This document shows positions 58,568-60,475 of a DNA stretch of 64,000 bases, piece by piece. The DNA comes from an uncultured Eubacteriales bacterium (GTDB lineage Bacteria; Bacillota; Clostridia; Peptostreptococcales; Anaerovoracaceae): positions 1 to 64,000 of the forward strand of contig CADADV010000014.1 in the NCBI GenBank assembly GCA_902786815.1, written 5' to 3'. A program made the translations under genes and the position numbers. The notes below the pieces were generated by a model. That model saw only the letters and a list, made by a program, of their open reading frames with translations. It was not told where the DNA came from and searched no databases. The first letter of the stretch is position 1; each line of letters opens with the position of its first letter.

Positions 58568-58615
58568 GCGGCTGCGCGCGGCCACGCCGGCGCTGCGGCT
58601 CGCGGCCGCAGCCGC
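58568..58615. repeat. Very G+C-rich hairpin region
   Basis: GCGGCTGCG (58568-58576) pairs with CGCAGCCGC (58607-58615), and nested parts (GCTGCGG/CCGCAGC) also pair. Nearly all of 58566-58640 is G or C. No reading frame is convincing. Confidence 0.55.
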
Positions 58616-58645
58616 CCCGGCGGCGCTGACGGCCCTGGAGCCAAT

Positions 58646-58688
58646 AAGTATCACGATTCGCTTAAGAATACGGTAAATCGTGATACTT
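58646..58688. repeat. Palindrome A of flanking unit 1
   Basis: Arms AAGTATCACGATT and AATCGTGATACTT, 13 bp perfect, 17-base loop. Confidence 0.9.
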
Positions 58689-58717
58689 TTCATCTGATTT
58701 GAGCCCAATAGGGGTAT

Positions 58718-58762
58718 TGACTATCACGATAAAGGATGGAATAGCGTAAATCGTGATAGTCA
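58718..58762. repeat. Palindrome B of flanking unit 1
   Basis: Arms TGACTATCACGAT and ATCGTGATAGTCA, 13 bp perfect, 19-base loop. The outer bases differ from A but are changed on both arms together. Confidence 0.9.
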
Positions 58763-58803
58763 GACAAGCAAATCACTCATTCTTGCCCGAATAATGGGAG
58801 AAA

Positions 58804-58842
58804 GTATCACGATTCGACCTCTGGAATGCAATATCGTGATAC
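58804..58842. repeat. Palindrome C of flanking unit 1
   Basis: Arms GTATCACGAT and ATCGTGATAC, 10 bp, 19-base loop. It is followed by ATATTGGCTCTC, the inverted end of the unit. Palindrome F is nearly identical. Confidence 0.9.
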
Positions 58843-58867
58843 ATATTGGCTCTCAAAAGACAATGGC

Positions 58868-59887
58868 CTAAAACCACAGTCTTGGGAGCACTTCGTTCCG
58901 GAGTATTTCAGCGATTTTTTCCCGCGAGTCCACATCATGCTCAAATGTTTCAATCAAATTGCTGCGGGAAACCGAACGAGTAAACTTTAACACCATCACA
59001 CGTTCACCTGCATTGCTGCGGTATGTAAACTCAAAGCATTTGCCGTGATGCTCCCATATGATTTCTTCACCAGAAGCGAGGATGATTTTGAAATCGTTAT
59101 AAATGCAGAGTCTTCCGGTTCTGGGATTGTAGGCTTTCCATATTGATCCCGGGGAATTCATCCATTCGAGTTCCTTAGGAACGCGCCAATAGCAGGATGT
59201 ATTCCGGATGTAATATAGATTCCCATTCAGCAGGTTATTCTCGCGAAGATCATGATATAGTTGGTCGACTAGAGGCTGAACCATAATTGACCGCTCTTCT
59301 TCGTAGTGGGCCGGGACAGCGTAATCGTGCAGGGAGTTCATAATGTCACGTTCAGATTTGGATTTCAAAGGGATACCTTCCGTTGAAAAGTGCACCGACG
59401 AAGGATTTTGCGCAAGGGCTTTTTCTACATCGAAGGGCTTTTGCTTGTATTCGCCGGTGTACCACTTAAACTGTTTCGGCGTCATGACAATCCGGGCAAG
59501 GTCCAGGTTGCCGGCCGCATATACTTCAATGAGAGAATGGAGCGACTCAATCAACTGATTTCGCTTCATTATGCTGCCTTTGTCAAGGCGTCCGGTCAGT
59601 TTCAGGATCTCTATAAGCAAAAGCAGGTACTGCCGTCTGGCAAGTAAGTAGATTTCATCAGATGATTTCGCAACGTACTTCTGTATGCCGTTGATTTTTT
59701 TATAAAAAGTCACCTGTTTATTACGCTTGACGTGGAACAGTTTGACTTGCGGCAGGTTCGCAGCCATTCGAACAGTTCTTGCCACGGCGGCATCAACATT
59801 AAAACTGCCGTTAAGGGCAGCATCAATGGATCTCAAAAACGCCCCCGGCTTCATCTTCCCCTTTGGCATTTTTTTCTTCATATTCAT
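58868..59887 (-). CDS. Putative PD-(D/E)XK nuclease-like protein of repeat element
   Basis: The 339-residue protein has a basic N terminus (MNMKKKMPKGKMKPGAFLRS), a helical middle (about 75-165) and a C-terminal half resembling a PD-(D/E)XK nuclease: GIPLKSKSE (Glu179), HYEEE, then NDFKIIL (Asp265, in the place of PDF) and IIWEHHGK (Glu279). The terminal part is beta/alpha with VMVLKFTRSVSRSNL. The start is the ATG at 59887, five bases after GGGAGG on the reverse strand; ATGs at 59890 and 59905 are also in frame. It has its own promoter (59931-59959). Recognition of the flanking palindromes is inference. Confidence 0.55.
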   Translation of the reverse strand: MNMKKKMPKGKMKPGAFLRSIDAALNGSFNVDAAVARTVRMAANLPQVKLFHVKRNKQVTFYKKINGIQKYVAKSSDEIYLLARRQYLLLLIEILKLTGRLDKGSIMKRNQLIESLHSLIEVYAAGNLDLARIVMTPKQFKWYTGEYKQKPFDVEKALAQNPSSVHFSTEGIPLKSKSERDIMNSLHDYAVPAHYEEERSIMVQPLVDQLYHDLRENNLLNGNLYYIRNTSCYWRVPKELEWMNSPGSIWKAYNPRTGRLCIYNDFKIILASGEEIIWEHHGKCFEFTYRSNAGERVMVLKFTRSVSRSNLIETFEHDVDSREKIAEILRNEVLPRLWF

Positions 59888-59930
59888 CATCTCCTCCCAA
59901 CGCAATGATATAAATGGCAGCTATGGAAAA

Positions 59931-59959
59931 ATATTACATCTCTAATGCGCTGATGTCAA
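59931..59959 (-). promoter_or_regulatory. Promoter of nuclease-like gene
   Basis: Reverse strand TTGACA (59959-59954), 17-base spacer, TAATAT (59936-59931). It lies between the gene and palindrome D, so the module carries its own promoter. Confidence 0.8.
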
Positions 59960-59994
59960 CCTCCATATTACTGGATGATTTTCAGAAGCCAAAA

Positions 59995-60035
59995 TGTATC
60001 ATTATATGGCTTGAAACAAAGTGAATCATGATAGT
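59995..60035. repeat. Palindrome D of flanking unit 2 (degenerate)
   Basis: TATCAT (59997-60002) and ATGATA (60028-60033) still pair. The surrounding bases align with palindrome A (AGCCAA.A.GTATCA ... AATCATGATAGTTTT). Confidence 0.6.
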
Positions 60036-60067
60036 TTTGAGGAATTTGGTGCAGAATCGGAATATGG

Positions 60068-60106
60068 CTATCACGATTTGCCATAGATTATCTTAATAAG
60101 TGATAG
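60068..60106. repeat. Palindrome E of flanking unit 2 (partly degenerate)
   Basis: CTATCAC (60068-60074) pairs with GTGATAG (60100-60106). It aligns in order and spacing with palindrome B. Confidence 0.65.
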
Positions 60107-60150
60107 TCTTCTTGCCGGAAGAGCCCCTATCTGTGAAATATCAGGGAAAA

Positions 60151-60189
60151 GTATCACGATTCGGCCCTTGGAACGGGATATCGTGATAC
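60151..60189. repeat. Palindrome F of flanking unit 2
   Basis: Arms GTATCACGAT and ATCGTGATAC, 19-base loop, followed by ATATTGGCTTTC. Nearly identical to palindrome C over about 58 bases. Confidence 0.9.
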
Positions 60190-60210
60190 ATATTGGCTTT
60201 CAAAAAACCT

Positions 60211-60245: not shown

Positions 60246-60475
60246 GTGTCGCGACAGCGGCATGGTTTTTGTGCGAGCAGGAGCAATCCGGCAGCGAGCA
60301 CACTAGAAGATATTTTTAGACGCCGAAACAGTTGGGCAGCGCGCGAACGCATTGCGAAAGCACAGCGAAAGCAGCGGCGCAACCGAGTAGGCAGGACCGA
60401 ACCAGTTTGATCCGGCAGCCAGCCTTCGGGCGGGGCGAGACGGAAACAAACCCAGTAGGCAGAAAGGAAGACGCA
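60246..60475 (+). promoter_or_regulatory. Long 5' leader of rplM-rpsI
   Basis: About 230 untranslated bases with several small stems, for example GCC-TTCG-GGC near 60422-60431. Ribosomal protein operons often use such leaders for autoregulation (L13 binding its own mRNA). I cannot match it to the known L13 leader from sequence alone. Confidence 0.4.

Follow-up and report, generated by a model that had tools for sequence, protein, structure and literature searches.

Why does a single gene for a nuclease-like protein stand between two copies of a unit that carries three palindromes? This question is raised by a block at positions 58638-60201 of a 64,000-nucleotide stretch of DNA (contig CADADV010000014.1, assembly GCA_902786815.1, from an uncultured Eubacteriales bacterium), which we call the window throughout, and where the block occupies the gap between atpC and rplM. 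We find that arrays of such palindromes are linked to genes of this family, that their words are gene-specific, that the sites are phased by the DNA helix and dispersed in two genome lineages, and that the palindrome arms are conserved over the spacers. Our best explanation, to which we assign a probability of roughly 0.5, is that the predicted nuclease binds the phased arrays belonging to it, probably regulates its own gene through them, and maintains them in a manner that resembles the relation between REPs (repetitive extragenic palindromes) and the RAYT proteins (REP-associated tyrosine transposases). Binding and cutting are predicted activities in this proposal.

The layout of the block agrees with an earlier sequence-only reading, which had described two direct three-palindrome units around one reverse-strand gene. 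Unit 1 (58638-58853, plus strand) lies 3' of the gene and unit 2 (59985-60201, plus strand) lies upstream of the gene's promoter and adjoins the rplM promoter. All of the palindromes, hereafter dyads, have the form TATCACGAT-N19-ATCGTGATA or are near copies of it, spanning 37 bp with a centre that is constantly 19 bp. The three dyads of unit 1 (58649-58685, with 9+9 arms around N19, 58722-58758 and 58805-58841) have perfect arms, as does the third of unit 2 (60152-60188); the other two (59997-60033 and 60069-60105) have three arm mismatches each, and unit 2 is therefore the more degenerate of the pair. The dyads occur in the same order and at similar start-to-start spacing (73/83 in unit 1, 72/83 in unit 2), and over a 72-bp stretch comprising dyad 3 and its surroundings the two units share 82% identity. 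As had also been proposed, the whole block has inverted outer ends (19 bp, 95%). Unit 1 has inverted ends too (20 bp, 95%), which consist of GAGCCAATAAG plus a half dyad on one side and a half dyad plus CATATTGGCTC on the other. Given that the 2.2-Mb genome contains 20 forward matches to the dyad pattern at up to three mismatches vs 0 for a backwards control, the pattern is not due to chance.

The gene itself (58868-59905, minus strand) encodes a member of a PD-(D/E)XK-like nuclease family and is listed as 345 residues with a TTG start, although an ATG at approximately 59881-59890 appears to be the likelier start because of the ribosome-binding sequence GGGAGGAG. The sigma-A promoter that the earlier description had given to the gene is present as a near-consensus TTGACA-17-TAATAT at 59931-59959, read from 59959 to 59931 on the minus strand, between the gene and unit 2.

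Arrays accompany the gene family, each with its own word

Homologous loci were examined with a scanner that detects clusters of similar 9-bp inverted pairs. Its threshold, a score of at least 16, was set on a first set of loci drawn from the window's genus and named relatives (genomes, contigs and loci are referred to below by G, C and L numbers, with G000 being the window's genome). Flanks shorter than 120 bp were dropped from this set, and only the first open reading frame (ORF) per locus was kept (two for L086). Arrays reached the threshold in 23/87 gene flanks, vs 3/284 distant windows and 0/87 shuffled flanks.

The second set consisted of 60 new loci from other genera, picked by protein similarity among the top E-values of a profile search. 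Palindromes had no role in this choice, and the loci skipped were places already fetched and a few others, including three with an internal stop. With a flank cut-off of 150 bp, all 124 flanks were kept. An array was found within 600 bp of 42/62 genes, which bears out the suggestion of the sequence-only reading that palindromes and gene are tied to each other. Counted by flank, 43/124 carried arrays vs 3/397 distant windows, corresponding to an approximately seventy-fold excess in odds (Fisher p 2e-26), and the flanks of other ORFs, used as a further control, carried arrays in 5/416 cases. The control hits among the distant windows and other-ORF flanks of this set comprise three dispersed arrays and, at L303, the end of the array that belongs to the locus gene; the dispersed arrays carry the word of the locus gene (L282) or that of a family member elsewhere in the same genome (L279 with L273, L288 with L287). 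Related species are present in both sets and the genes are not fully independent, and thus this p-value, as well as the Rayleigh p-value for array spacing given below, is too small. The link between gene and array is strong, though not universal at the sensitivity of the scanner.

Most array flanks of the second set are upstream of the gene (37/43, with 6 downstream), whereas the 23 array flanks of the first set divide into 9 upstream and 14 downstream. Arrays on both sides within 600 bp were seen for 1/62 genes. Some arrays are long. At L135 (6580-7043 and 8357-9246; G285:C5), 9 and at least 15 dyads are located on the two sides of the gene and use one word, GCACGGACT/AGTCCGTGC, with a 53-bp period and recurring linker types, and at L303 (5149-6124; G687:C1) a 22-dyad array is positioned upstream of a family gene.

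Apart from close relatives, every gene has its own word. Even paralogues within one genome differ in this respect, as with TGTATTCGC, TTTACCCCA, AATGCATCC and CCCACTAAA in G513. Across 71 genes, of which a few (L061 and L092 among them) are partial, word similarity correlates only weakly with protein similarity when all pairs are taken together (Mantel r 0.20; 0/500 permutations as high, p <=0.002), but the relation is sharp among close proteins: words are shared by 4/4 pairs with more than 70% N-terminal identity, by 5/14 pairs at 50-70% and by about 1% of pairs below 30%. This comparison does not single out the domain that would read the word, with N- and C-terminal identity giving r 0.216 and 0.172 against word similarity, and a cross-locus word count gave only a weak signal (3.7 vs 1.18 dyads per Mb, where the figure of 1.18 includes sister-species copies). 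The sequence-only reading had expected TATCACGAT beside homologues and had proposed to judge its case by that search. Homologues instead show the same architecture with words of their own, and therefore such a test would have misled.

The window's genome also contains another paralogue, a distant one (G000:C9, L021:6252-7202), which likewise has a word of its own, (T)GTACAAGA(G). Its arrays are located directly downstream (L021:7297-7540) and approximately 4 kb away (L021:2044-2248).

Phasing, inheritance and dispersal of the sites

The spacing of the dyads follows the DNA helix. The 132 distinct gap values between neighbouring dyads fall mostly near 42, 52, 63, 73, 84 or 94 bp, and among periods scanned from 8 to 14 bp the best is 10.50 bp, with a phase of -0.11 bp and an R of 0.78, vs a maximum of 0.28 in 500 random sets. 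The nominal p-value of 8e-36 is too small, as arrays of relatives are not independent. Gaps that follow 10.5 bp with a phase near zero place the sites on one face of duplex DNA, a spacing that fits the needs of cooperatively bound dimers and that RNA or single-strand hairpins would not need. Among the 53 arrays that have at least four dyads, approximately 9.5 positions per half-dyad reach a conservation of 80%; most of these lie 9-19 bp from the axis, and they are centred 14.9 +/- 1.8 bp from it. The 'hairpins' of the sequence-only reading are thus probably the wrong picture, because helical-turn spacing and a position upstream of the window's promoter point to double-stranded protein-binding sites.

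Promoter context was assessed where the array lies upstream of the gene. A promoter with at most two mismatches occurs in the array-gene interval of 9/46 such pairs (20% vs 3% in shuffled intervals), two of these nine cases being near-duplicates of others. The word is found inside the spacer of a perfect promoter at L250 and L253, and half-sites between array and start codon number 13 vs 2.0 expected over 41 regions.

Comparison of the atpC-rplM gap among relatives separates the history of the gene from that of the array. The whole block, with its two units in direct order as in the window, is present at this gap in L058 (genome G061, goat metagenome-assembled genome RGIG2549), where the protein is 96% identical. 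The two copies differ at 3/108 arm, 10/114 inner-spacer and 14/180 linker positions. The gene is broken or decayed at L061 (64% identity in the best segment) and at L081 (G006), each of which has only the promoter-side array, with the word CTACACAAT and gaps of 83/41 in the former and ATACACATA and 83/72 in the latter, and in G019 the 3' end of the gene alone remains. Thus, in the 4 genomes that keep gene sequence together with an array at this gap, the promoter-side array is the constant partner of the gene. Judging from these loci, the gene seems to have stayed at this site by descent, with occasional losses, and the array is the dispersed component. Block-free relatives of the kind that the sequence-only reading had proposed to seek do exist (G007, G013, G014 and G020 have neither gene nor array at the gap), and they lend no support to its idea of a mobile block. 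We also rejected the block as a gene-moving transposon, because the pattern at the rplM site looks like descent in place with losses.

Two further features of this gap were recorded. A GC-rich stretch (GCGGCTGCGCGCGGCC...) at 58568-58637 separates the atpC terminator from unit 1; L058 has a differing GC-rich stretch at the equivalent position, and the four empty relatives have none. The rplM leader (60315-60475) carries the repeated motifs CCGAAACAGTTG, AACCGAGTAGGCAGGACCGAACCAGTT and AAACCCAGTAGGCAGAAAGGAAG, which are conserved in relatives and match no Rfam family at gathering score, and it is possibly an undescribed ribosomal-protein leader.

Outside the block, the window's genome contains 13 dyads at six places. 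Three-dyad units with the same 83/72 spacing are present at C2, C3 and C9, two dyads at C5, and single dyads at C23 and C36; an additional match at C10 is solitary and has 3 mismatches. Several of these dispersed units have common outer ends resembling TTGA(G/A)AGCCAAAATG plus a half dyad, and one-, two- and three-dyad forms of the approximately 216-bp inverted-end units exist in this genome. At the C2 site, both flanks were found in 11/12 relatives, 7-103 bp apart, and all 11 lack the unit. At the C9 site, the unit is absent in 9/12 relatives, with the flanks 67-128 bp apart, and the other three are rearranged or have flanks further apart. The matching stretches in the window's genome measure approximately 250-330 bp (C2) and 230-290 bp (C9), and the two units appear to have been either gained in the window's lineage or lost in the others. 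In G061, which holds the block, the third dyad of the C5 unit is still present, whereas the window's genome has lost it. One of the dispersed units (G000:C9:51153-51373, L021) overlaps the start region of a gene that we take to be addB; in three relatives shown in that orientation, a terminator-like hairpin replaces the unit.

The window's word exceeds chance only in G000 and G061, whose genes are 95-100% identical, and is at chance level in 60 relatives. A looser TATCACGAT pattern (one free position per arm and at most one mismatch) gave one match each in 4 of these relatives, and a backwards control gave one each in 2. The word is absent from G062, where the gene is 64% identical in the best segment. 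Among the genomes searched, the excess over chance is thus confined to G000 and G061, and we rejected the idea that TATCACGAT serves the whole family.

A second case of dispersal concerns the word TTACCTGCA, which forms 67 dyads in G205, 33 in G624 and 1 in G575, and 0 in G665, G788 and G823 (of the same genus as G205 and G624), in G285 and in G513. The fetched stretches of G205 contain at least 12 arrays with a 74/75-bp period. The owner of this word is presumed to be the family gene at G205:C15:45236 (L137), 0.8 kb from the nearest array; its orthologue in G624 (L246, 90% identical) is 0.7 kb from one. The best relative of the L137 protein at the G665, G788 and G823 loci, of which no more than six copies per genome were scored, is approximately 35% identical. 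In six pairs of orthologous arrays, differences affect 7/612 arm positions (1.1%), 125/646 inner positions (19.3%) and 161/1020 linker positions, and within G205 the arms differ by 5.1% between arrays and the inner and linker DNA by 62-63%. Simple ORF calls put the G205 and G624 arrays between genes in every relative orientation, the place in G624 that corresponds to one G205 array has no array, and inverted ends are not evident at the termini of the arrays in these two genomes.

The protein and what it may do at its arrays

Relatives of the window protein were found in 29/61 genomes searched, all in its genus. A nine-member profile (seven members from family f15 and two from the window's genome) matches 42/391 genomes of the class at E <=1e-10, in a search that scored at most six matches per genome; the sole match sits within a larger protein in 7 of those 42 genomes. 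Residues E185, D271, E285, H286, G288 and Y295 are invariant among the 42 aligned members (alignment A1, which excludes the broken genes L061 and L081). This pattern of E, D and E-H-x-G (E..D..EHxG) may correspond to the ordered acidic motif of the PD-(D/E)XK superfamily (E...PD...(D/E)xK in an alpha-beta fold), with no lysine at the usual place. The PDC-S68 models of PADLOC match 42/42 A1 members and 9/9 A2 members; where the matched region was displayed, it was C-terminal. PADLOC's PD-DEXK model matches some members, a PHROG endonuclease matches 10/42, and PHROG Holliday-junction-resolvase families match some. The motif and these profile matches support the nuclease-like character that the sequence-only reading had assigned to the protein.

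The window protein belongs to no family that Pfam or NCBIfam describes, and Pfam returned nothing for 9/9 A2 members and a single unrelated hit in 1/42 A1 members. Known anti-phage defence systems gave no whole-protein match, the C-terminal region alone matching PDC-S68, and sequence searches against solved structures gave nothing useful. A structure model is confident only for residues ~40-140 (a helix, three strands and helices), which plausibly form a DNA-binding fold.

Phages or plasmids were considered as the main home of these genes, and this idea was rejected on finding no match to the window protein in phage records or viral contigs. Profile searches of viral contigs, for which the alignment was too diverse, added nothing. 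A protein of the f15 type has no relative in viral contigs and matches 3/50,697 phage records, one of them over 87% of the protein, and phage carriage of this type is accordingly possible. Its 8 plasmid matches cover the nuclease region only. This region also occurs in plasmid proteins annotated as AAA ATPases or helicases from Rhizobium, Vibrio, Hymenobacter, Sphingomonas and others (the same 8 records, including NZ_CP013539.1 and NZ_CP047896.1, one without annotation).

We propose that each member of this family of small proteins combines an N-terminal putative DNA-binding part with a C-terminal PD-(D/E)XK-like nuclease domain and is paired with its own site, a word of approximately 8-9 bp arranged as inverted pairs with approximately 28-30 bp between the two copies. 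An array consists of 2 to 22 such pairs, separated by whole numbers of helical turns. Each inverted pair would be bound by a protein dimer, and adjacent dimers on one face of the DNA would join cooperatively. Where the array is on the promoter side, the gene would be autoregulated. Less certainly, the nuclease may cut at or beside bound arrays and so copy and reshape them, either directly or via repair. The gene would thereby keep a chromosomal population of arrays, as a RAYT does with its REPs, with a different enzyme and on double-stranded DNA. We consider it highly probable that the protein binds the arrays, and close to an even chance that it also spreads them.

Several observations weigh against this proposal or limit it. 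Arrays were not found within 600 bp of 20/62 second-set genes (in six of these 20 loci, an array overlaps the gene or sits further off), and a paralogue in the window's genome, at C9:75755, gave none. Binding and cutting are predicted functions, and the nuclease fold is suggested by the motif and profile matches; the C-terminal part is poor in both structure models (mean predicted local distance difference test scores of 54 and 50), and a Foldseek search with the poor model returned nothing. When three mismatches are allowed, promoters are hardly commoner in array-gene intervals than in shuffled ones (37% vs 31%). Regarding mobility, the gene shows no sign of hopping, the C2 and C9 units replace some sequence, and no target-site duplication is visible at the diverged junctions of C2, C9 and L137/L246. 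The word TTACCTGCA could belong instead to another G205 family gene, L139, which has no nearby array, and the L137 gene is only likely to be missing from G665, G788 and G823, as judged from at most six scored copies per genome. Arm conservation is partly built in because dyads were detected via their arms, with at most 4/18 mismatches allowed, though this would not by itself yield a figure of 1%. Finally, conserved arms at orthologous dispersed arrays suggest that the site has a function, which plain selfish copying does not need.

The alternative that we rate highest, though tentatively, takes the arrays as chromosomal sites that hold back or direct a nuclease with a defence or guard role. 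While bound to DNA, this protein would be harmless and the chromosome marked as self, and site loss or site-free foreign DNA would result in cutting. Conserved arms amid drifting spacers fit this idea, as do the restriction of the window's word, above chance, to gene-bearing genomes, the presence of arrays beside genes in all orientations, unlike a regulon, the several copies per genome with different words, and the resemblance of the nuclease domain to the C-terminal domain of the PADLOC candidate PDC-S68 (42/42 and 9/9 members). However, PDC-S68 has only candidate status, the resemblance to it stops at the nuclease region, the arrival of arrays at new places is not explained by restraint alone, and a defence role and toxicity are conjectural. 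A more specific form, which we hold to be slightly less probable again, would have the arrays act as lineage-specific self-marks that hold or aim the nuclease, a private, double-stranded and phased word being written at several chromosomal places and kept by selection. If true, this would amount to a code for self-recognition that is heritable and can be rewritten quickly. A cell would contain several such codes, each blind to the others, and the principle would be widespread among Clostridia-type bacteria of the gut, with no relation to the logic of HUH enzymes, CRISPR or restriction-modification.

It is unlikely that the protein is simply a transcription regulator whose arrays are operator clusters for autorepression and a small regulon, with the nuclease domain as a relic or accessory. 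The upstream position of 37/43 array flanks in the second set, the window promoter between array and gene, and the word inside the promoters of L250 and L253 would be expected of such a regulator. The invariance of the catalytic-looking E185, D271 and E285 would not, nor would the prevalence of downstream arrays in the window's genus (14/23 flanks) or the location of dispersed G205 and G624 arrays between genes of every relative orientation. Operators are also usually smaller than arrays of 9 to 22 dyads.

Far less probable is an RNA-level system, in which transcribed arrays would fold into hairpins and serve the nuclease as guide or antitoxin RNA, in the manner of type III toxin-antitoxin or CRISPR systems. 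Perfect inverted repeats would indeed fold, and regular arrays adjoining a nuclease gene look CRISPR-like. We nevertheless rejected RNA hairpins as improbable, given the 10.5-bp phasing, the placement of the window's array upstream of the promoter and the lack of an Rfam match, and the inner spacers drift and duplicate within arrays, unlike acquired spacers. That the arrays are unrelated repeats of the MITE (miniature inverted-repeat transposable element), terminator or REP type near these genes by coincidence is strongly disfavoured, despite the inverted ends and the one- and two-dyad forms of the window-genome units, by the approximately seventy-fold odds excess beside one gene family, the gene-specific words, and the occurrence of arrays at just 5/416 flanks of other genes.

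With these caveats in mind, we favour REP/RAYT-like upkeep and spread, followed by restraint or self-marking and then by regulation alone.

Relation to known systems

Literature searches for repeats linked with such nucleases found no earlier description, with most subscription journals outside their reach, and one may therefore exist. The dispersed units of the window's genome are reminiscent of MITE and BOX elements in being approximately 216 bp long, in having inverted ends and one to three internal dyads, and in lying between genes. They differ in that no transposase with matching ends and no target-site duplication was found, and in that they are tied to a nuclease gene and its word. Moreover, the terminal inverted repeats of MITEs have counterparts in these units but are not evident in the G205 and G624 arrays.

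The res sites of serine resolvases also contain several dyads, presumably dimer sites, at whole-helical-turn spacing, and the arrays are likewise multi-dyad with whole-turn spacing. However, the protein is no serine recombinase, and its sites are dispersed and more numerous. PDC-S68 and the helicase-like proteins share the C-terminal nuclease domain of the family, whereas the PDC-S68 models are approximately 1200 residues long and the small family described here lacks the rest, having its own N-terminal domain and arrays.

The closest parallel is with REPs and RAYTs, as the sequence-only reading had suggested. According to one study, a rayt gene always has a pair of inverted REPs at its sides and co-evolves with them, the presence of a rayt correlates with the abundance of its REP, REPs usually exceed 100 copies, and the transposase is of the HUH/Y1 tyrosine type, Pfam PF01797 (PMC2817692); another treats REP doublets as the replicating unit (PMC3116915). 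The systems are alike in having one nuclease-type gene lineage per palindrome family, palindromes both beside the gene and dispersed between genes, a gene and palindrome that change together, and clusters with unrelated inter-palindrome DNA (PMC2817692, PMC3116915). The dependence of palindrome on gene is seen for the window's word, present in G000 and G061, and the word tracks the protein at close range.

The comparison is therefore apt as a working mode, but the HUH transposase and the two-sided inverted flanking have no equivalent here. No HUH/Y1 transposase was found on checking the window protein and the A1 and A2 members in Pfam, and arrays are mostly on one side of the gene rather than forming two flanking inverted REPs. 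Each palindrome is a pair of inverted ~9-mers around a centre of 19 bp or a similar length, and the DNA helix sets their phase; this 10.5-bp phasing appears to argue for double-stranded sites rather than the single-stranded hairpin recognition of RAYTs. Array counts, available for two genomes, ran from six to a dozen or more, vs the more than 100 copies usual for REPs (PMC2817692), and the family was found in gut Firmicutes of one class. If the protein binds its arrays, a nuclease family present in 42/391 sampled genomes, often in several copies, would gain a DNA partner of which we found no earlier description. The many natural pairs of a protein and a ~9-bp word would offer material for reading a DNA-recognition code, and the family would be a candidate for the spread and upkeep of short repeats in bacterial chromosomes. 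It would also represent a second route to the REP/RAYT-like coupling of an enzyme with dispersed palindromes.

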